A stretch of 64,000 nucleotides of DNA, taken from positions 682,001 to 746,000 of the forward strand of contig NZ_JAMGBA010000001.1 in the NCBI RefSeq assembly GCF_023516455.1, read 5' to 3'. This stretch comes from Sphingomonas caseinilytica. GTDB taxonomy: Bacteria; Pseudomonadota; Alphaproteobacteria; Sphingomonadales; Sphingomonadaceae. The notes beneath the pieces were generated by a model that worked only from the letters and a program-made list of their open reading frames with translations, searched no databases and had not been told where the DNA came from. Positions 8,717 to 50,890 of this stretch are shown here, in pieces. Within the stretch, counting starts at the first letter, position 1. Each line of letters starts with the position of its first letter. The position numbers and the translations under genes were made by a program.

Positions 8717-9196
8717 TTGCGCTGTCCGTTTTGCGCCCATGAAGACAGCCAGGTGAAGGACAGCCGCCCGTCCGAAGACGGCGCGGCGATCCGGCGGCGG
8801 CGTCAGTGCGAGGGCTGCGGTGCCCGCTTCACGACGTTCGAGCGCGTGCACATCCGCGACCTCACGGTGGTCAAGAAGGACGGCAAGCGCGAACCATTCG
8901 ACCGGGCCAAGCTGGAGCGTGCGATCAGCCATAGCTGCCGGAAGCGCGACATCGACCCGGCCAAGGTCGACCAGCTGATCAGCGGCGTCCAGCGCCAGAT
9001 GGAAACGATGGGCGACGAGGTCTCGTCGGTGAAGATCGGCGAGGCGGTGATGGCCGGTTTGAAGGCGCTCGACCATGTCGCCTACATCCGCTTTGCCAGC
9101 ATCTACAAGGACTTCAGCGAGCCGGGCGACTTCGCCGAGATCGCCGAGCGGGTGGAGAAGGAAGCGATCCCGCCGGGTCACACCAAATTGCTATGA
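8717..9196 (+). CDS. nrdR: Transcriptional repressor NrdR
   Basis: Zn-ribbon and ATP-cone repressor of ribonucleotide reductase genes. It has 159 residues. The zinc ligands are C3, C6, C31 and C34 (RCPFC and CEGCG). The ATP-cone spans about 47-137 ([20 protein letters not shown]). The start is TTG at 8717, three bases after the glyA stop, and is fixed by the conserved MRCPFC N-terminus. It follows glyA in the usual proteobacterial order. Confidence 0.95.
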
Positions 9197-9213: not shown

Positions 9214-9346
9214 GTCCTTCGAGACGCCGGTTCGGCAGGCTCACCGGCTCCTCAGGAGGAACGGAAGGCTTGGGATTTCCCAACTTACGTTCGTCCTGAG
9301 GAGGGATTGAGCAAGCGAAGCGCGTCGAAGGCCCGTCTCGAAGGAC
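9214..9346. repeat. Inverted repeat pair: short arm (+) then long arm (-), upstream of the GIY-YIG gene
   Basis: Short arm 9215-9264 starts TCCTTCGAGACG and ends CTCCTCAGGAGGAACGG. Long arm, about 9285-9345 on the minus strand, starts with the same TCCTTCGAGACG and ends CTCCTCAGGACGAACG. The outer 13 bases GTCCTTCGAGACG match exactly in inverse orientation (9214-9226 and 9334-9346). Related arms occur at 9631-9680 and at 50775-50890. This whole stretch between nrdR and the next gene is taken up by the repeat. Confidence 0.85.
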
Positions 9347-9350
9347 TGGC

Positions 9351-10418
9351 ATGAGCTTTTTCGCCTACATGCTTCGTTGTTCCGACGGCAGCTATTACGT
9401 CGGACACAGTGAGGAATTGGAAGCCCGTTTCGCGGCTCACCAGTCCGGCCAAGTTCCTGGCTACACACAAAACCGCCGTCCAGTTCAGCTAGTATGGGCT
9501 CAGGAGTTTACTTCACGCGAAGAAGCGTTGGCCGCCGAGCGACAGGTAAAGGGATGGAGCCGGGCCAAGAAGGAAGCCCTCATTCAAGGTGATTGGAAGG
9601 CAATCAGTGCGTTGGCGAGCCGTGCCAAGATCCTTCGAGACGCCGCTTCGGCAGGCTCACCGGCTCCTCAGGACGAACGGGTGGTGGACGGCAACCTCAA
9701 CGCACCCATCATCGTTCTCGTCCGCCCCCAGCTCGGCCAGAATATTGGCAAGGCCGCACGCGCGATGCTCAATTTCGGCATTACCGAGTTGCGGCTGGTG
9801 AGCCCACGCGATGGGTGGCCCAATCCGGACGCAGGACCGGCGGCCAGCGGCGCGGACGCGGTACTCGAAGGCGCGGAGGTATTCGAGACGACGGCAGAGG
9901 CAATCGCCGATTGCTCGCTGGTATTCGCCTCGACGGTCCGGCGCCGCGACCTGGTCGTCCCGGTAGTCGGGCCTGATGAGATGGCTCGCGAGATCCACGA
10001 CACGGGCGGCCGCACCGCGATCCTGTTCGGCCCTGAACGATCCGGCCTTGAGACCGAGGATGTGGCTGTCGCGAACCGCATCGTCACTGTTCCGATCAAC
10101 CCGGAGTTCGGCAGCCTGAACCTGGCGCAGGCGGTGATCCTACTTGCCTATGAATGGTCGAAGGGCACCAGCCTCGTGCAACCTACCGCGCGGGAGACCG
10201 AGCCAGCAGCGCCGATGAGCAACCTCGAAGGCCTAATTGGACAGCTTGAAGAGGAACTGGAAACGGTCGGCTATTTCTTTCCGCCGGATCGGATCCAGGC
10301 GACCAAGACGACGCTTCGAACCATCCTTACCAAGCCGCAATGGTCGAGCCGGGAGATCTCCGCACTTCGGGGTGTGATCCGGGCACTGGTCACCCACCGT
10401 TCATCGAAATCGGGCTAG
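9351..10418 (+). CDS. Fusion: GIY-YIG nuclease domain + TrmJ-type SPOUT RNA methyltransferase
   Basis: One 355-codon open frame. Residues 1-90 are a complete UvrC/YhbQ-like GIY-YIG domain, with AYMLRC (Y6), YYVGHS, R27/H30 and E63 in AAERQVKGW. Residues about 94-110 are encoded by a copy of the intergenic repeat (ILRDAASAGSPAPQDER). Residues 115-355 are a TrmH-family SPOUT methyltransferase of the TrmJ type, with RPQLGQNIGKAARAMLNFG, FGPERSGL and PEFGSLNLAQAV (2'-O-methylation of tRNA position 32 in characterised members). GTG codons at 9681 and 9684 could start a separate TrmJ behind an AGGA. So either a true fusion or two products; the nuclease portion looks inserted. No terminator or stop separates them. 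Confidence 0.85.
   Translation: MSFFAYMLRCSDGSYYVGHSEELEARFAAHQSGQVPGYTQNRRPVQLVWAQEFTSREEALAAERQVKGWSRAKKEALIQGDWKAISALASRAKILRDAASAGSPAPQDERVVDGNLNAPIIVLVRPQLGQNIGKAARAMLNFGITELRLVSPRDGWPNPDAGPAASGADAVLEGAEVFETTAEAIADCSLVFASTVRRRDLVVPVVGPDEMAREIHDTGGRTAILFGPERSGLETEDVAVANRIVTVPINPEFGSLNLAQAVILLAYEWSKGTSLVQPTARETEPAAPMSNLEGLIGQLEEELETVGYFFPPDRIQATKTTLRTILTKPQWSSREISALRGVIRALVTHRSSKSG
9631..9680 (+). repeat. Solo short arm of the repeat, inside the fused reading frame
   Basis: 50 bases, 48 identical to the short arm at 9215-9264 (differences at the 16th and 44th bases). Being inside the open frame, it encodes the linker between the nuclease and methyltransferase domains. Confidence 0.9.
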
Positions 10419-12193: not shown

Positions 12194-14174
12194 ATTGGCC
12201 CAATGCCTTCTGAAGCTGCGCGCCGATCTGGGTCAGCATCTGGATTCGCGCCTGACTGTCATCCAATTGATGATCCAGATCCTTGAAGCGCAGGAATTCC
12301 ACGGGCCTTCCAAGACCCTGGAGCGCCGATGCCATTTTGACGCTGTGCTGCACGCCGACGTTGAGGTCGAGATCGCCGTGCACAAGCAGGACTGGCGCGG
12401 TTATCGAAGACGCGTTCTGAAGAGGCGAGCCTTCGCGAACATGTTCGCCGCTTCCGACGAAATCGCGAACCATCTGGGAGCTGGTATATTCGTCGGCTTC
12501 CCGTTTCAGAAGTGCAAGATCCGTAACCGGCGCGATGGCTGCAACTGCCTTGTAACGCGTCGGTTCGACGGCGGCCGCCTGAAGGGCGGCATATCCGCCA
12601 TAAGACCAGCCCACGATCGCCAGCTTGGCCGGGTCCGCGATACCCTGGTCCACGAGGTAGCGCGCTGAATCATTGACGTCCGAAATGGCCTTTCGCCAAT
12701 CCTTGAAGCCGTTGGCTCCCTGGAAATCATCGCCATATCCGGACGAGCCGCGATAGTTCGGCTGGATGACGGCATAGCCCCTGGCTGCCAGGAACTGGGC
12801 AAGCCAATCGAAACCCCATTCGTCGCGAGAGCTTGGGCCGCCATGCGGCAGCACGACAGCCGCTAGCTTCTTTCCGGCCGACCCGGGAGGAAGCGTCAGA
12901 TAGGCCGGGATCGAAGTTCCGTCCGCCGCGCGATAAGTGATCGGCTTAACCGGGCTCAGCGTCCGCTTGGCAAGCGCCGGTCGCGCGTCGAACAAGGGGC
13001 TCATTTCCTTCGTCTTGCGATCCAGGAAATAATAACCGCCAGGATTGGTGTCCGATCCCGCGAAAATCAGCAGCTTTGTGCCGTCGCTGCTAGAATCCGA
13101 AAAGGAGATGATCGGCAAGTTCGGAATCGCATTGCCGAGACTCTGCGAGAGTCCGTCAAATTCCCGGTCGAAATAGACCACTTCGCGCTTGTCGGTAGCG
13201 AAGGTGTAGCCAATCACTTTCTGCCCCCGACCGAAGCGGGTCACGCCGTCGATATCCACGGCATCGTTCTTGGCGACCAGCTCAGGCTTGTTGGATCCGT
13301 CGAGTACCATTCGATAGAGCGCGTCGCGACCGTTGAGCTTCTGGGTATAAAAAAGCGAATTGCTTTCCGCTTCGATCGCGAGCGGCTGCATTCCGTTTTC
13401 ATTGCGCTGGTCGTAGGTCCCGAGCGCCTGCCAATCACCGCCGTTGGCACCCCGATATTGATATTTGACCTGGCCGCTCAAAATTCCGGAAGAATCTTCG
13501 GCATAGTCGGTCCGGATACGAACATGTCCCCGCCCGTCGGTGACGAAGTCGTCATACTCCGGTCTCGGCGGCTCTACCTCTTCCGATTTCAGCGTGAGGA
13601 GGTCGATGCGATCTACGCCCAGGCCCCTTTTCGAGCGCGACATCCGGGTGCCGGTGCGGCCCGCTTCCTTCATATATTCGCGGGCCATCAGGACGGAGCC
13701 GCCATCGTTGGTGACCCAATCCAAGACCTGCCCGTCAAACTGACGAACACCTGCATCGTAAAAGCTCGAGCGTTGGCCAAGCTGGGCGAGACCGGTGCCG
13801 TCGACCCCGATCCTGATCAACCGGCCGAAGCCGAGGAGCAAACCGTCGACCATCAGGTTGCCGCCGTAACGGCAGACGATCTGCGTCTCGCTTCCAAAGC
13901 GGCACCAGCGAAGGGTTTCGGGCGTGCCGGGGGCGGACAAGATCGTCCGTTCCTCTCCAGTAAGAAGGTGGAATACCTTCAACGAGGTTTGCGCGCCCCT
14001 GCCGGGAACCAGCATCAGTATCCGGTCGCCTGAGGGAGAAATCGCAACCTGCTCGGCAGCAGGACGGACACCAAACGCCCCTGCATCTTCCACCAATGTT
14101 CCCGCGTTAGCCGCCGTTGCGGCCCAAAACGCCACGCTCGCGGCAGCTACCCGCCACTTCATTGAAACGCCCAT
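12192..14174 (-). CDS. Prolyl oligopeptidase family (S9) peptidase, exported
   Basis: 660 residues. A signal peptide (MKWRVAAASVAFWAATAANA) follows a short MGVS start; an internal ATG at codon 5 is an alternative. Residues about 30-400 form a beta-propeller-like region and the C-terminal 260 the alpha/beta-hydrolase. The triad is S524 (GWSYGGYA), D603 (HGDLDLNV) and H635 (DLDHQLDD). It resembles DPP4/acylaminoacyl-peptidase-type enzymes acting on short peptides in the periplasm. It is downstream of a close paralogue in the same direction. Confidence 0.9.
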   Translation of the reverse strand: MGVSMKWRVAAASVAFWAATAANAGTLVEDAGAFGVRPAAEQVAISPSGDRILMLVPGRGAQTSLKVFHLLTGEERTILSAPGTPETLRWCRFGSETQIVCRYGGNLMVDGLLLGFGRLIRIGVDGTGLAQLGQRSSFYDAGVRQFDGQVLDWVTNDGGSVLMAREYMKEAGRTGTRMSRSKRGLGVDRIDLLTLKSEEVEPPRPEYDDFVTDGRGHVRIRTDYAEDSSGILSGQVKYQYRGANGGDWQALGTYDQRNENGMQPLAIEAESNSLFYTQKLNGRDALYRMVLDGSNKPELVAKNDAVDIDGVTRFGRGQKVIGYTFATDKREVVYFDREFDGLSQSLGNAIPNLPIISFSDSSSDGTKLLIFAGSDTNPGGYYFLDRKTKEMSPLFDARPALAKRTLSPVKPITYRAADGTSIPAYLTLPPGSAGKKLAAVVLPHGGPSSRDEWGFDWLAQFLAARGYAVIQPNYRGSSGYGDDFQGANGFKDWRKAISDVNDSARYLVDQGIADPAKLAIVGWSYGGYAALQAAAVEPTRYKAVAAIAPVTDLALLKREADEYTSSQMVRDFVGSGEHVREGSPLQNASSITAPVLLVHGDLDLNVGVQHSVKMASALQGLGRPVEFLRFKDLDHQLDDSQARIQMLTQIGAQLQKALGQ

Positions 14175-14249
14175 TACTCCCCCTTACCCCCTCGCGATTC
14201 GACGGTTGAGAATTGCGCTACGTAACTGCCCGCGCAACCTCTTGGCGCG

Positions 14250-16238
14250 TCAGTTACCGATCGTCCGATCGAGCAACTGGCCGATCTTCATCAGCATTTC
14301 GGCCCGGGCGTTGCTGTCGTCGAGCTGATGTTCGAGCTCCTGATAGCGCACCAATTCGACCGGAGTGCCTGCTTTCTGAAGCGCGTCGGCCATCTTCGTG
14401 CTGTGGGCGATGCGCACGTTCAAGTCCAAGTCGCCGTGAACGAGCAGCACCGGAGCCTTGATGCGCGAGGCATTCTGCAGCGGGGATCCCTGCCTCAAGT
14501 TCACGCTGTCCGAACCGATGAAATCACGCGCCACCTTGCCGTTGATATAGTCGTCGGATTCGCGGCGCAGCAGTGACAGGTCGGTAACCGGTGCGATGGC
14601 GACCACGGCCTTGTAGCGGTCGGGCTCAAGAGTTGCAGATTGAAGCGCGGCATAGCCGCCGTAGGACCAGCCCACGATCGCGAGCTTGCCGGCGTCCGCG
14701 ATGCCCTGGTTGACCAGATATTGGGCGGATGCGGAAATATCGCTCATCGCCTTCTTCCAGTCGCGGAAGGCATTCTCGCCCAGGAATTCTTCGCCATAGC
14801 CCGCCGACCCGCGATAGTTGGGCTGGATCACGGCATAGCCGCGCGAAGCAAGGAATTGGGCGAGCCAGTCAAAACCGAAGCTGTCGCGCGCACTTGGCCC
14901 GCCGTGGGGCAATACGACGGCCGGACGCCCCTTTGCCGGACCGTCCTTGGACATGGTCAGGTAGGCCGGGATCATTTTCCCATCCGCGGCCGGAAAGCTG
15001 ATCGACTGGACGGGAGCGAGCTGCTGACCGTCGAGCTGTTCGCGCGACAGCAGTAGCTGTTCCATTTGCTTTGTCGCACGGTTCAGAACGTAGAAAGTGC
15101 CCGGGTGCGTGTCCGCGCTGGCGTGAACCAGCAGCGTCTTGGCATCGCGCGAAGCGGCAACGAAATCGATCAATGGGGTCGTCGGAAGCGCCCGGCTAAG
15201 CGAGCCACCGAGCTTTTTGAACTCGGGATCGAAATAGATCACCCGGGCGCGGTCGTCCGTGTAGCTGTAGCCAATGACCGGAAGTCCGCGATCGATGCGG
15301 ACCACGCCGTCGATGTCGACCTTGTCATTGCTTGCGACCAGTGATCGGGCACCGGATCCGTCCAGCGTCACCCGATAGAGCGCATCCCGACCATTGAGGT
15401 TTTCCAGCACATAGGCCGAATTGGAAGACTGCTCGACCGCGACGGGCCAGATACCTTCTTCACTGACGGTGTTGTAATTGCCGAGCGGCTTCCACTCCTG
15501 GTCGCCCGGGGTGCGATAGCGATACTTGATAATCCCGGTGAGATTGTCGGTACCGTCGAAGTCGCTGAACGCCATGATGCGCACGTTGCCGCGCCCATCC
15601 GACATATATCGCGATGCTGTCCTCTTCGGCTCCTCGACAACCTTCGATCGAAGCGTGGCAAGCTCGACCCGGTCCACTCCAAGCCCAAGCCGGTCGTCCT
15701 TGATATTGGTCGCGCGTTCTTCGACCTTGGGGACATAGGTCCGCGCCATGAGCACGGAACCTTCATTGTCAGGCAGCCAATCAAGGACCGATCCGTCGCT
15801 CTGGCGGATATACATGTCATAGCCGGCCCGCTTCGAGCCGAGCGATTGCTGCTTCGTCCCGTCCGAGCGCAAGGTAACCAGCTTCGAGAAGCCTGCCAGT
15901 ACGCCGCCGATGTTATCGACCGCCGTATACATGCAAATCAGCTGCGTCTCGGTCGCAAATTCGCACCATTCGAGTGACTCGGGCTTCCCGCTCGATCCAA
16001 AGATCGGTGTCACCTGCTTGGTGTCGAGATCGAGGATTTTCGCAATTGTCGAGGAACCAGGTCCGGCCGAGAGAAAGACCAGCTTGCGCCCTGAAGGAGA
16101 CAAGTCGGCGGCCCAGGCGCTTTCCCGCACGCCGAACTGCCGGGCCGCCTGGTTGAGCGGCATTACTTGAGCAGACGCGCTAAAAGATACGCCGGCCAGC
16201 AGGGCTGCAGCTATTATATTCTTCAACTTCACTGACAT
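14250..16238 (-). CDS. Prolyl oligopeptidase family (S9) peptidase, exported (paralogue)
   Basis: 662 residues from the ATG at 16238, which gives the signal peptide MSVKLKNIIAAALLAGVSFS and has GGGGGAGG just upstream; the frame is open further upstream but lacks support. The predicted triad is S525, D605 and H637 in GWSYGGYA, HGDLDLNV and LEHQLDD. Domain layout is the same as in the next gene, consistent with tandem duplication. It probably acts on peptides in the cell envelope. Confidence 0.9.
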   Translation of the reverse strand: MSVKLKNIIAAALLAGVSFSASAQVMPLNQAARQFGVRESAWAADLSPSGRKLVFLSAGPGSSTIAKILDLDTKQVTPIFGSSGKPESLEWCEFATETQLICMYTAVDNIGGVLAGFSKLVTLRSDGTKQQSLGSKRAGYDMYIRQSDGSVLDWLPDNEGSVLMARTYVPKVEERATNIKDDRLGLGVDRVELATLRSKVVEEPKRTASRYMSDGRGNVRIMAFSDFDGTDNLTGIIKYRYRTPGDQEWKPLGNYNTVSEEGIWPVAVEQSSNSAYVLENLNGRDALYRVTLDGSGARSLVASNDKVDIDGVVRIDRGLPVIGYSYTDDRARVIYFDPEFKKLGGSLSRALPTTPLIDFVAASRDAKTLLVHASADTHPGTFYVLNRATKQMEQLLLSREQLDGQQLAPVQSISFPAADGKMIPAYLTMSKDGPAKGRPAVVLPHGGPSARDSFGFDWLAQFLASRGYAVIQPNYRGSAGYGEEFLGENAFRDWKKAMSDISASAQYLVNQGIADAGKLAIVGWSYGGYAALQSATLEPDRYKAVVAIAPVTDLSLLRRESDDYINGKVARDFIGSDSVNLRQGSPLQNASRIKAPVLLVHGDLDLNVRIAHSTKMADALQKAGTPVELVRYQELEHQLDDSNARAEMLMKIGQLLDRTIGN

Positions 16239-23030: not shown

Positions 23031-25523
23031 TTATTCGTAACGAAGAGCGTGGATCGGGTTTGCCCGCGCGACCTTGAAGGCGTGGCTGATTACCGTGACG
23101 ATGGCGATGGTGAGCGCGACCAGCGCGGCCACCACGAACGGCGCGGGACCAAGGTCGATCCGGTCGTCGAACTGGTTCAGCCAGTCGCGCATCAGCCACC
23201 AGGCGGCCGGCCAGGCGATGATGTTGGCGACGATGACCGGACGGCTGAACTGCCAGACCAGCAGTTGCACGATGTCGCGAGTCCGGGCCCCCAATACCTT
23301 GCGGATCCCGATTTCCTTGGTCCGCCGTTCGGCGGTGAACGCCGCGAGACCGAACAGGCCGAGGCAGCCGATGACGACCGCCAGCATGGAGAATGCCGCG
23401 AACATCTGCGCGCGAGCATCCTCTGCCTCGTACAGCTCCTTCATCACGTCCTCGCTGAACTCTGCGTTGAACGGCACCTCGTTGGTGATCTGCTTCCATT
23501 CCCGCTCGACGGCCGAGCGAACGGTCGCGGGATCGCCGTCGTAGCGGACGATCATCCACGCCGGACCCTTGTTGACGTTGCGGAACATGATGGGATCGAT
23601 CGGCGTGCGGACCGAACGGAAGCGGGTATCGCCGACGACGCCGATGATGTGCACGTCGGTGATGCCGGTGTCGGGCGAGAACATCTCGCTGCGCACGGTC
23701 TTGCCGACCGCGTCCTGCGGCGATTTGAAGCCGAGCTGGCGGACGGCATATTCGTTGAGGACGACGTTGACGCCGCGCGCGGTCAGCGCTTTTTCCACTT
23801 CGACGTCCGTCGGGAACGGGGTGGTCATGTCGTCCATCGGCCGGTTCGGATCGAACCAGCGCCCGGCCTTCATCGTCAGCCCCATGGCGTCGAAGAAGCC
23901 CTCGTCGACATTATATTGGCCGATCAGGATCTGCTTGGTGCTGCCCGGCGGGATGATGAAGTTGTTGTTGTTGTTCGACGTGTTGACGCCGATGTCGGTG
24001 CGCCCGACCGCGGTAACGCCCGGCACCCGCTTCATCCGCTCGACGATGGATTCTCCGGTATCCCAGAGCTGGGCGCGGGCGAGTTCGTCCACCTGGAGGA
24101 TATGGTCGCGCTTGTAGCCCGGATCGACCGAGCGCGCGTACACCGTCTGGCCGTAGATGACCGCGGTGCAGATGATGAGGCCGATCGAAACCGCGAACTG
24201 CAACACGACCAGGGCCGCGCGCAGGCGACCCGAACCCGGCGTTTCAGCAGCGGATCGGTTGGCCTTGAGCACCTGCGCCGGCTGGAACCGCGACAGGAAG
24301 AAGGCCGGATAGAGGCCGCTGACGATACCGACCGCCAAGGTAAGGCCGATGGCCGGCAACAGGATACCGCCGCTGCCCAGATAGTGGAGCTGCAGGTCCG
24401 CATCGAGGAACGCCGCGAACGGCTTCACCAGCAGTTCGACCAGCGCCAATGCCAGAAGCATCGATGCGGCGGAGATCAGGATCGATTCCCCGACGAACTG
24501 GATGATCAGCTGCTTGCGATTGGCCCCAAGCACCTTCCGAAGCGCGACTTCACGGGCGCGCTGGCTTGCGCGCGCCGTGGCTAGGTTGGTGAAGTTCACG
24601 ACAGCCATGCCGAGGATCAGTGCGGCGATGATCGCGAAGGTCGTGATCGTCTGCTGCTCATTGCTGGGCGTCATCTCGCCATCCTTGGCCTCGCCGAGGT
24701 GGATGTCGCTAACGTTGGTGAACTTCCATTCCTGGAAATCGCCCTGGTTGAACTTGATGCCGCCGGTGTCCTCGTCCGGGATGTTGCGCTTTTCCCAGGC
24801 GGGAAGCTGCGCTTCCAGCTTCTTGGCATCGGTGCCCGGTTTCAGTTTCAGATAGACCCAGCCTGACTGGCAGCCCCAGCAGCTCAGGAAGAAGGGATCG
24901 TCCTTGAAGAAGGCCGCCATGTCGAGGCGTAGGATGGCGTTGATCTTCATGTGCGAATTCTTCGGCACATCCTTGAGGACGCCGGTGATCTTGAAGTCGC
25001 GCTTGATGCCGCGGGAAATGACCGTCAGCGTCTTTCCGACGACGTCTTCGGTGCCATAGCGGCGCATCGCCTCGCTCTGGGTGACGACACCGGTCTGCGG
25101 CGCGGTGAGGGTCGTTCCGGCCACCAGCGGCAGGTTGACGACCTTCAGGAAGTCTTCGTCGGCATATTTATAGTCTTCGGTAGCGGTGGCCTGCCCGTCC
25201 TTCAGGAAGACCGGCTCCGTGCCGAGGATGTAGGCGCCGTTCTCGACCTGCGGGAAGTCCTTCTCGATGCGTTCCTTGGTCGTGTAGGACGCCATCTGGA
25301 AGGCGAATTCTTCGCCCGTGTCCGGGTTCTTGCCGAAGGTCTGGAACTGGTAAGTGTTCTCAGCGTCCGGGATCCACTTATCGTAGCTCTGCTCGTAACG
25401 GATGTAGAGCAGGATCATGATGCAGGCGGCCATGCCGATGGCGAGGCCGGCGATGTTGATGATCGAATAGGTCTTGCTCTTGGCGAGCGCCCGAACAGCT
25501 ACCGTCCAATAGTTCCGCCACAT
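23031..25523 (-). CDS. ABC exporter permease, MacB/FtsX type (copy 1)
   Basis: 830 residues with the eight-helix layout of double MacB_PCD/FtsX proteins. A TM helix at about 20-42 is followed by a periplasmic domain to about 280, an FtsX block at about 290-420, a second periplasmic domain, then FtsX at about 705-825 ([20 protein letters not shown]). It is the last gene of the operon adaptor-ATPase-permease-permease. Its first 50 residues are identical to those of the adjacent paralogue, indicating recent duplication or conversion. Substrate unknown. Confidence 0.88.
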   Translation of the reverse strand: MWRNYWTVAVRALAKSKTYSIINIAGLAIGMAACIMILLYIRYEQSYDKWIPDAENTYQFQTFGKNPDTGEEFAFQMASYTTKERIEKDFPQVENGAYILGTEPVFLKDGQATATEDYKYADEDFLKVVNLPLVAGTTLTAPQTGVVTQSEAMRRYGTEDVVGKTLTVISRGIKRDFKITGVLKDVPKNSHMKINAILRLDMAAFFKDDPFFLSCWGCQSGWVYLKLKPGTDAKKLEAQLPAWEKRNIPDEDTGGIKFNQGDFQEWKFTNVSDIHLGEAKDGEMTPSNEQQTITTFAIIAALILGMAVVNFTNLATARASQRAREVALRKVLGANRKQLIIQFVGESILISAASMLLALALVELLVKPFAAFLDADLQLHYLGSGGILLPAIGLTLAVGIVSGLYPAFFLSRFQPAQVLKANRSAAETPGSGRLRAALVVLQFAVSIGLIICTAVIYGQTVYARSVDPGYKRDHILQVDELARAQLWDTGESIVERMKRVPGVTAVGRTDIGVNTSNNNNNFIIPPGSTKQILIGQYNVDEGFFDAMGLTMKAGRWFDPNRPMDDMTTPFPTDVEVEKALTARGVNVVLNEYAVRQLGFKSPQDAVGKTVRSEMFSPDTGITDVHIIGVVGDTRFRSVRTPIDPIMFRNVNKGPAWMIVRYDGDPATVRSAVEREWKQITNEVPFNAEFSEDVMKELYEAEDARAQMFAAFSMLAVVIGCLGLFGLAAFTAERRTKEIGIRKVLGARTRDIVQLLVWQFSRPVIVANIIAWPAAWWLMRDWLNQFDDRIDLGPAPFVVAALVALTIAIVTVISHAFKVARANPIHALRYE

Positions 25524-25602
25524 CGTTCCTGTCCTCGTCCAAATCCTGGCTGCGAAGGGGGCCGAACCAGCAGCGAAGCGGGTTCGGCCCGGCGATATTC
25601 CG

Positions 25603-28098
25603 TTATTCGTACCTCAGTGCGTGAATGGGGTTGGCTCTCGCCACCTTGAACGCGTGACTGATGACCGTGACGATGGCGATGGTGAGCGCGATCAGTGCGG
25701 CCGCCACGAACGGTGCCGGGCCCAGAGTGACCCGATCGTCGAACTGGTTCAGCCAGTCGCGCATCATCCACCAGGCCACCGGCCAGGCGATGATGTTGGC
25801 GACGATAACCGGACGGCTGAACTGCCAGACCAAGAGGCGCACGATGTCGCGGGTGCGGGCTCCCAGCACCTTGCGAATGCCGATCTCCTTGGTCCGCCGC
25901 TCGGCGGTAAAGGCGGCGAGGCCGAACAGGCCGAGGCAACCGATCACCACCGCGAGCAAGGAGAAGGCCGCGAACATCTGCGCGCGGGCATCTTCCTGCT
26001 CATATGCCTCGCCAATCACGTCTTCGCTGAACTTGGCGTTGAACGGCACCTCGTTGGTGATCTGCTTCCACTGGCGCTCTACGGCGGATTTTACCGTCGC
26101 GGGATCGCCATTGTAGCGGACGATCATCCACGCCGATCCGGTCGTAACCTTGCGGAACATGATCGGTTCGATCGGGGTGCGGACCGTGCGGAACCGGCTA
26201 TTGCCGACCACACCGATGATAGTGATGTTCACCATGCCCGCTTCCGGTGACAAGAGCTCACTCTTCACCACCTTGCCGACCGCATCCTGAGGCGATTTGA
26301 AGCCTAGCCGCTGGGCGGCAAGTTCGTTGATGACGACGTGGATTCCGCGCTGGGCGATCGATTTCTCGACGTCCAGGTTCTGCGGAAATGGTATGGTCGT
26401 ATCGTCGATCGGACGGCTGGCATCGAACCAGCGGCCGGCCTTCAAGGTGAGACCCATCGCGTCGAAATAATCGGCGCCCACATTGTACTGGCCGATCAGG
26501 ACCTGCTTGTTTGCACCGGGCGGAATGATGCCCGAATTGCTGTTGTTGGTGGTCGCGACGCCTATATCGGCAAGCGAAGCAGCGGTCACACCAGGGATGC
26601 GCTTCATCTGATTCACGATCGTCTCGCCGAGCGGATAGAGCTGGGCACGCCCCAGTTCATCGACCTGGAGGATGTGATCCCGCTTGTATCCGGGGTCGGC
26701 CGACCGGGCGTAGACCGTCTGACCGTAGATGACCGCGGTGCAGATGATGAGCCCGATCGAAACCGCGAACTGCATCACCACCAGCGCGGTACGAAGACGT
26801 CCGGAACCCGGCGTTTCAGCGGCGGAGCGATTGGCTTTCAAGACCTGCGCCGGCTGGAACCGCGACAGGAAGAAAGCCGGATAGAGCCCGCTGATGACGC
26901 CGACCAGCAAGGTCAGCACGATCGCCGGAAGCAGGATCCCGCCCTGACCGAGGTAGTTGAGCTGCAGATCCGCATCGAGGAATGCAGCGAAAGGCTTCAC
27001 CAGCAGCTCGACCAGCGTCAACGCCAACAGCATCGAAGCGGCGGAGATCAGGATCGATTCACCGACGAACTGGATGATGAGCTGGCGCCGGTTCGCACCG
27101 AGAACCTTCCTCAAGGCCACTTCGCGAGCACGCTGGCTGGCCCGGGCCGTGGCGAGATTGGTGAAATTGACCACCGCCATTCCGAGGATCAGCAAGGCGA
27201 TCACTGCGAAAGTGGTGATCGTCTGCCGGTCGTTGCCCGGGGTTATGGTGCCATCCTGCCCCTTGCCTAGGTGGACGTCCGCGATGTTGACGAAATGCCA
27301 GTCCTGCTCCTGGCCGGCGTTGTACATGATGTCGCCGTTCGGCTCGTCAGGGATGTTGCGCTTTTCCCAGGCCGGAAGCTGCGCTTCCATCTTCGACACG
27401 TCGGTGCCGGGCCGGACTTTCAGATAGACCCAACCGTTCTGGCAACCCCAGCAAGTGAGGATTTGCGGATTGTCGGCGTTGAAGGTCGGATAATCGAGGC
27501 GCAGGACCGCCTTGACCTTCATGCTCGAATTCTTGGGTATATTCTTGAGCACGCCATTGATCTTGAAATCACGCTTTTGGCCGCGCGAGATCACCGTCAG
27601 CGTGCGTCCCAGCACCTGATCGGTGCCGTAGCGGGCGATGGCCTCGTCCTGCGCGATCACCGCCGTCTGCGGCGCGGTAAGGGTCGTTCCGGAGAGCAGC
27701 GGAAGGTTGATCACCTTCAGCATGTCGTCGTCCGCGAACAGATAGTCTTCGGTCGACGTCGCCTGGCCGTCCTTCAGGAAGACCGGCCCATTGTCCTGGA
27801 CGTAGACGGCGTCCGTGACCTGCGGGAAATCCTTCTTGATCCGGTCCTTGGTCACATAGGCGGACATTTGCAGCAACGCCGGATCACCGCCCGATTCCGG
27901 GTTCGGATACCAGGCCTGGAACTGGTAGGTGTTCGCATGATCCGGGAGCCATTTGTCATAGCTCTGCTCGTACCGAATATAGAGCAGGATCATGATGCAG
28001 GCGGCCATGCCGATCGCGAGACCGGCAATATTGATGATCGAATATGTCTTGCTCTTGGCAAGCGCCCTAACCGCCACCGTCCAGTAATTGCGCCACAT
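25603..28098 (-). CDS. ABC exporter permease, MacB/FtsX type (copy 2)
   Basis: 831 residues with the same architecture as its downstream paralogue: TM1 at about 20-42, two MacB-like periplasmic domains, FtsX blocks at about 290-420 and 705-825, with the motif [18 protein letters not shown] before each set of helices. The first 50 residues are identical to copy 1; the periplasmic domains have diverged (for example EPNGDIMYN against EDTGGIKFN), which would fit different partner or substrate contacts. It lies 30 bp after the ATPase gene. Confidence 0.88.
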
Positions 28099-28128
28099 CG
28101 CGGCTTATTCCCTTCGAACCGAGTGCAA

Positions 28129-49927: not shown

Positions 49928-49998
49928 TCGTCATCCCCGCGAAAGCGGGGACCCAGATTGTTTGCTTGGCTAGGTTCCCGCTTTCGCGGGAATGACGA
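49928..49998. repeat. Inverted repeat of CGTCAT-CCCGCGAAAGCGGG type
   Basis: Two inverted arms: left TCGTCATCCCCGCGAAAGCG (from 49928), right ending AATGACGA at 49998, each itself holding the hairpin CCCGC-gaaa/ttt-GCGGG. It fills the gap between the gcvPA start and the methyltransferase stop. The family is distinct from the TCCTTCGAGACG repeat. Confidence 0.8.
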
Positions 49999-50774: not shown

Positions 50775-50890
50775 CCGTTCGTCCTGAGGAGGGACTGAGT
50801 AAGGCTGAAGGCCGCACCGAAGGCCCGTCTCGAAGGACCATCCTTCGAGACGCTGCTTCGACAAGCTCAGCGGCTCCTCAGGACGAACGG
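50775..50890. repeat. Palindromic element: long arm (-) + short arm (+) of the TCCTTCGAGACG family
   Basis: Long arm 50775-50837 (minus) and short arm 50841-50890 (plus), separated by about 3 nt. Outer ends CCGTTCGTCCTGAGGAG / CTCCTCAGGACGAACGG match perfectly, as do the inner TCCTTCGAGACG heads, so a large cruciform or RNA hairpin can form. It lies between gcvH and the methyltransferase. It has the same long-short order as the arms flanking the GIY-YIG domain at 9.3-9.7 kb. Confidence 0.9.

Follow-up and report, generated by a model that had tools for sequence, protein, structure and literature searches.

Small GIY-YIG nucleases paired with palindromic repeats of their own, and a conserved copy joined in frame to TrmJ in Sphingomonas caseinilytica

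We analysed a 64,000-nucleotide stretch of the Sphingomonas caseinilytica genome (contig NZ_JAMGBA010000001.1, positions 682,001 to 746,000), here called the window, in which a GIY-YIG nuclease domain lies downstream of nrdR between inverted copies of a repeat (Table 1). Direct reading located both arms, and an extra short arm upstream, where an original prediction made from the letters alone had placed them; it also bore out a gene-less pair of the same long and short arms, separated by 2-3 nt. Repeat detection recovered these arms and the gene-less pair (direct repeat family D8; inverted pairs I12, I13, and I16-I19). The inverted repeat that spans the gene scored 19.0, above all 56 control positions of the same geometry in the same stretch, and these controls, together with the repeat counts of the genome, rule out a chance inverted repeat. 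A second gene-less pair in the window belongs to a different, CGTC-tagged repeat, whose matching nuclease (L003) lies outside the window at C1:41795 of the source genome, G000. Apart from the palindromes, the window contains long direct repeats at 23031-28100 (blocks of 189-300 nt, 73-87% identical, about 2,572 nt apart; D1-D3, D6), as if a gene cluster had been duplicated in tandem, and direct repeats at 12454-15014 (71-73% identical, 2,061 nt apart; D5, D13) that are probably duplicated genes.

Table 1. Features of the nuclease locus and of the gene-less repeat pairs in the window
Feature	Position	Strand	Evidence
nrdR, upstream neighbour of the nuclease site	8717..9196	+	Pfam Zn_ribbon_NrdR and ATP-cone; gene order kept in 46 loci
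Extra short arm, upstream	9215..9264	+	Sequence read directly; direct repeat family D8
Long arm 5' of the nuclease	9285..9346	-	Direct reading; inverted pairs I17, I19; control-position scoring
GIY-YIG nuclease domain	9351..9632	+	Pfam; Y6, Y16, R26, H30, E63 invariant in 29 aligned fusions
Short arm, translated in frame as inter-domain linker (low model confidence, residues 93-109)	9631..9680	+	
trmJ domain (SpoU/TrmJ methyltransferase), in-frame fusion to the nuclease	9690..10418	+	ORF, Pfam, fold search
Gene-less long(-)/short(+) pair, repeat of the window nuclease	50775..50890	.	Direct reading; inverted pair I12
Gene-less inverted pair, second (CGTC-tagged) repeat	49928..49998	.	Inverted pair I3

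The nuclease domain, however, does not make up a whole gene by itself. From its ATG at 9351 the frame continues without a stop through the short arm into trmJ, which encodes a tRNA-modifying protein, forming a single open reading frame (9351-10418) in which Pfam recognizes GIY-YIG (residues 4-74) and SpoU_methylase (residues 120-267) and no other domain. In the predicted structure of this fusion, the GIY-YIG domain is modelled with confidence, residues 93-109 have low confidence, and a TrmJ fold is present; because the pTM is 0.50, the placement of the two folded parts relative to each other is uninformative. A fold search of the PDB with the fusion returned only methyltransferase relatives of the TrmJ part among the best 50 matches listed, and the only PDB sequence matches of the nuclease were UPF0213 proteins (1zg2, 1ywl), which have the same domain.

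Copies of the repeat are dispersed through the source genome (2.78 Mb). The outer 13-mer of the arms, CTCAGGACGAACG, had 41 matches with at most one mismatch, versus 1 for the reversed pattern; 9 of these matches stand alone and the remainder make up 16 close pairs, of which 14 have the tag-outward (-,+) order, with a spacing of 71-101 bp. A further pattern, TCCTTCGAKACG, is present in 15 copies. The four matches to PF01541 in this genome are UvrC and three small GIY-YIG genes, each of which lies between inverted arms, and the three palindromes are different: CCGTTCGTCCTGAGGAG.. for the window copy, GTTCCCCGGCGAAGGCCGGGGCCC.., and TCGTCATTCCCGCGAAAGCGGGAACCCAG.

We then compared GIY-YIG genes in three samples: (i) S1, 42 genes, being 41 matches in 40 stretches plus the window copy, from about 64 non-UvrC matches in 61 relatives; (ii) S2, the first 40 small matches by E-value in 100 genomes drawn across the phylum, the source genome left out; and (iii) S3, the best 80 matches that a window-led alignment gave in GTDB genomes, a sample that leans towards relatives of the window copy because of that lead. 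Arms were called present where an inverted repeat across the gene scored at least 16. They were found at 30 of 42 genes in S1, 18 of 40 in S2, and 57 of the 79 testable loci in S3, versus 32 of 8,452 same-geometry control positions in the same stretches (maximum 45), frequencies that uphold the association of such genes with flanking arms on which the original prediction turned. An earlier control, which joined upstream and downstream flanks taken from different loci (995 pairs, maximum 39.0), and whose maximum only 1 of 68 true pairs exceeded, was discarded as unclean because many loci share a repeat family.

The presence of arms depended on the class of nuclease. Within S2, arms flanked 18 of the 23 genes with a K-x-W-x-R-like motif and none of the 17 without it (Fisher p = 3.3e-7), and the corresponding figures in S1 were 27/32 and 3/10. 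The count of zero in 17 rules out that all GIY-YIG genes attract repeats; the armless genes of S2 belong mainly to other GIY-YIG subfamilies, and many of those without the motif are, by eye, UPF0213-like, differing in this lack of flanking repeats from the window nuclease. Some genes with the motif were without paired arms (5/32 in S1, 5/23 in S2, and 22/78 in S3), and nearly all of the 22 testable armless genes of S3, together with one untestable locus, appeared by eye to have repeat-like sequence on at least one side. S3 extends to Chloroflexota (L297, L300) and Myxococcales (L332). Across several phyla, small GIY-YIG nucleases of the K-x-W-x-R class are thus bracketed by a palindrome in inverted orientation. 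Which palindrome it is varies with the nuclease, and several such nuclease-palindrome pairs can be present in a single genome.

Nuclease and palindrome vary together. Across 100 elements, arm similarity tracked nuclease identity (Mantel r 0.573), and none of 1,000 permutations gave a value as high. When elements from different genomes were compared, arms were similar in 77% of pairs at nuclease identity of 70% or more and in a fraction of 0.00 below 30%; within single genomes only 2 of 19 pairs had similar arms, and the nucleases of those two pairs were 78% and 99% identical. Further copies of the arm were found within about 10 kb at 31 of 96 elements (0/96 with reversed arms as a control), while the fetched stretches of the other 65, the window copy included, held no further arm copy.

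The number of repeats in a genome was likewise related to the presence of the matching GIY-YIG nuclease, a relation on which the original prediction depended. Exact pattern counts in 61 genomes of the genus, with the copies at the gene itself subtracted, were higher in genomes with a matching nuclease for repeat A (p = 2.6e-4; 5 versus 56 genomes), repeat B (p = 1.8e-3; 9 versus 52), and repeat C (p = 4.4e-3; 5 versus 56), where "matching" is defined by the arms themselves and the counts are not independent, because the genomes are related. For instance, repeat A (TCCTTCGAKACG) was counted 49, 31, 15, 9, and 4 times in the five genomes that have a nuclease of this type and 1.2 times on average in the remainder. 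An exception is G016, with 12 copies of A though its nuclease has other arms. Conversely, G016 and G018 have nucleases scored as B-bearing, yet their genomes have no exact copy of pattern B. Orphan repeats, carried by no nuclease of the same genome, also occur: G074 has 19 copies of B, and the source genome has 7 exact copies of C (CGTCATGCTGAACTTGTTTCAGCA), at 7 places.

The window copy occupies a site shared with many Sphingomonadales. We collected 46 loci in which nrdR and trmJ flank the nuclease (45 from S1-S3, of which 42 are from S3, plus G082), and the identical order in the 45 loci other than the window rules out an assembly artefact. Within the genus, nrdR was located in 60 of 61 genomes, and 50 of these loci were read: in 45, nrdR adjoins trmJ without a nuclease and with gaps of less than 80 nt (the 20 junctions whose sequence was inspected contain no repeat); in four (G000, G082, G031, and G029) the nuclease lies between the two genes; and in one trmJ lies outside the fetched stretch.

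At 45 of the 46 site loci the nuclease frame is open into trmJ. In all 45 the distance is divisible by three, with linkers of 28 different lengths (29 when the one out-of-frame locus is counted), whereas the position of the nuclease relative to the nrdR frame is random (14/16/16 over the 46). The linker contains a strict repeat motif in 37 of the 46 loci and, by eye, a diverged repeat in the other nine, and its peptide depends on which frame of the repeat is translated (e.g., ..RDAASAGSPAPQDER.. versus ..SFDTGLRQAQPLLRTNG..). Because the fusion stays open while linker lengths and frames vary, we conclude that selection keeps it open as the repeat turns over. Residues Y6, Y16, R26, H30, and E63, which we take to be the catalytic set, are invariant in an alignment of 29 fusions. 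The window copy is therefore anchored: it forms the N-terminal part of a conserved GIY-YIG::TrmJ fusion whose linker is translated from a repeat arm. In this conserved case a mobile palindrome supplies the peptide that connects the two domains of a protein, with length and frame varying and openness into TrmJ kept.

The nuclease and its neighbours at this site have diverged to different degrees: divergence of the nuclease correlated with that of nrdR at r 0.34 and with that of trmJ at r 0.19, versus 0.67 between nrdR and trmJ. A weakly supported tree of 107 nuclease domains needs 10 changes of the site label, and its well-supported forks force at least two, e.g., where L317 (at the site) falls inside a clade of off-site copies. 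Since the window copy is anchored and in frame at a site common to many Sphingomonadales, it is best read as a resident copy, RAYT-like or domesticated, rather than a hopping element, and the claim that it is itself a self-mobilising element was not sustained. Such a resident nuclease may serve repeats elsewhere in trans.

Copies outside this locus seem to differ in that respect. The G145 genome holds the gene plus its arms twice, 98.7% identical over 298 bp in different surroundings; in one copy (L241) the nuclease gene is interrupted by an insert of 144 bp, which itself carries the repeat as an inverted pair and has TTTA at both ends, and the second copy is without the insert. Two copies in G139, 88% identical over 463 bp and ending at the arms, form an older pair. 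For the window copy, no recent duplicate of gene and arms at another site was seen. The unit of gene and arms thus seems to move outside the window locus. At a further locus (L077, in G058), two tandem nuclease genes with identical predicted proteins lie 578 nt apart, with repeats between them.

A comparison of filled and empty sites was possible in G079, the closest relative by nrdR. Its nrdR-trmJ junction is bare, and its nuclease, the best match (73% identical), lies between arms at another site, SDR-cysQ. Among 30 SDR-cysQ loci, this arm-gene-arm arrangement in G079 is accompanied by gene-less pairs of the same general type in G000 and G009 and by pairs of other repeat types in G074 and G064; the other 25 loci hold no repeat pair, their genes either touching or being separated by a gap sequence without one. 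For a homing endonuclease, whose gene would break up its own recognition site and whose gene-less alleles would keep that site intact, the relevant observations are this distribution and the bare nrdR-trmJ junctions. The filled and gene-less states, whose comparison the original prediction called for, are thus both present at a single site, while the comparison does not give their order.

These observations bear on the self-mobilising reading of the original prediction, in which arm, gene, and arm jump as a unit that gives rise to gene-less pairs by internal deletion. The near-identical copies in G145 and the older ones in G139 speak for it, as do the filled and gene-less states at SDR-cysQ and the presence of the G079 nuclease there rather than at its bare nrdR-trmJ junction. 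However, the window copy sits at the site common to 46 loci, fused in frame to trmJ; nuclease genes are few per genome against tens of repeats; and independent insertions at SDR-cysQ are possible, because other repeat families occupy that site in two other genomes. We regard the self-mobilising unit as unlikely.

We favour, as the probable and best overall explanation, that the arms are part of a dispersed REP-like palindrome and that the nuclease beside them is its dedicated enzyme, each nuclease pairing with its own palindrome in a REPIN/RAYT-like division of labour in which the window copy is anchored. The suggestion of a REPIN-like system built on a GIY-YIG enzyme is accordingly supported, having withstood the two comparisons of arms and repeat counts described above, and gene plus arms occurring twice in the unrelated G145. 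The resemblance to REPINs and RAYTs, the closest known system in working, lies in dispersed palindromes that occur mostly as inverted pairs, in a flanked gene for the matching enzyme, and in several independent pairs per genome. The differences are in the enzyme, here a GIY-YIG nuclease instead of a Y1 HUH transposase, and in the fusion of the window copy to TrmJ; the window protein contains no Y1 (HUH) transposase, its only Pfam domains being the two given above. RAYTs act on REPs with a GTAG tag, which on direct reading is absent from the window arms.

Under the dedicated-enzyme explanation, the nuclease would recognise the palindrome with which it is paired, probably in the form of a hairpin in DNA left single-stranded by replication or uptake, and would cut beside it; through repair of the cut, new intergenic sites could then receive a copy of the palindrome pair and sometimes of the gene as well. 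The division of labour would be that of RAYTs and REPINs, with a hydrolytic GIY-YIG nuclease replacing the Y1 transposase. Hydrolysis of DNA is the chemistry of GIY-YIG enzymes, which, in contrast to RAYTs, are not known to rejoin ends; the weak point of the proposal is that such a nuclease would need host repair to complete a move.

CGTC-tagged REPs have been described as seemingly without a dedicated transposase: no RAYT or other IS200 transposase gene was flanked by them, in the parts of the survey covered here, and the term GIY-YIG is absent from the survey (PMC3733652; Di Nocera, De Gregorio, and Rocco 2013). The same parts define these REPs by a C/TGTC tag, a stem of 8-9 bp, a loop of 4-5 nt, and a CCA tail (PMC3733652). 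Arms with a C/TGTC tag, a stem of 8-10 bp, a loop of 3-5 nt, and mostly a CCA tail were present in 23 of the 46 strong elements of S1 and S2, not counting a 24th match of this type (G016a) that was judged spurious. Among the repeats of the window, the second family, TCGTCATTCCCGCGAAAGCGGGAACCCAG at L003, is of the CGTC kind, whereas the repeat of the window nuclease itself has another tag (CGTTCGTCCTGAG) and its arms fall outside that definition. The enzyme, if any, that spreads CGTC-tagged REPs was left open by the 2013 survey, as far as the parts covered here go (PMC3733652); the pairing names a candidate for each repeat, and a GIY-YIG nuclease is our candidate for the CGTC-tagged REPs. With three nuclease-repeat pairs, the source genome alone makes the question testable by cross-cleavage. 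The open-licence papers that we searched yielded no link between GIY-YIG genes and REPs.

A 2025 study in Nat Commun reportedly describes GIY-YIG site-specific single-strand nucleases, termed Ssn, that modulate transformation, the repeat in Neisseria being NTS. By that description, the window nuclease is Ssn-like in its small GIY-YIG domain, which retains the conserved motif residues, and in a matching sequence with many genome copies (the 41 of the 13-mer and 15 of TCCTTCGAKACG given above), and Ssn nucleases would be the closest known system in kind. If Ssn covers the general pairing, the new elements here are the CGTC-REP link, the gene copies that have moved, the filled sites set against gene-less ones, and a TrmJ fusion joined through the repeat. 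Ssn nucleases, which are said to affect natural transformation and to cut a repeated single-strand site, also lend some weight to another reading: that these are defence, DNA-uptake, or repair nucleases whose recognition sequence happens to be a repeat that is spread by something else and accumulates at the gene owing to protection or cutting by the nuclease. Repeat families that are orphans, without a matching nuclease, would fit as well, but the arms lie on both sides of the gene in most cases, and nuclease and arm co-vary even within one genome, so we rate this reading slightly below the already unlikely jumping unit.

Returning to the dedicated-enzyme explanation, a broader proposal can be built on it, to which we give about as much credence as to its opposite: a second, RAYT-independent route may spread REP-like palindromes, with diverse GIY-YIG nucleases each serving its own palindrome, the missing CGTC-REP enzyme among them, and one such nuclease may have been captured at the start of trmJ in Sphingomonadales, where a selfish repeat would have become a linker under reading-frame selection.

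The fusion itself has a precedent. A single GIY-YIG::SPOUT protein (COG0565, TrmJ family) was noted in Erythrobacter litoralis in 2006 and 2007 and, in the parts of those papers covered here, judged possibly not functionally relevant (PMC1564403, PMC1829167). Its two domains and their order match those of the window protein, but it was a single instance, in passages that do not mention repeats, whereas here there are 46 loci with the frame kept in 45 and a linker that is mostly repeat. That the GIY-YIG domain instead serves TrmJ in RNA processing, the repeats being incidental linker DNA, is very improbable: the conserved frame and active-site residues of the fusions and the RNA role suggested in passages of the 2006-2007 papers (PMC1564403, PMC1829167) would suit it, but unfused family members and distant W-motif nucleases have the same flanking repeats, and the genomes of the genus that are richest in the repeat are those with this nuclease type. 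In Bradyrhizobium, according to the part of that paper covered here, the nuclease domain found in TrmJ-family proteins is of another kind (DUF559, PD-(D/E)XK) and is C-terminal (PMC1829167).
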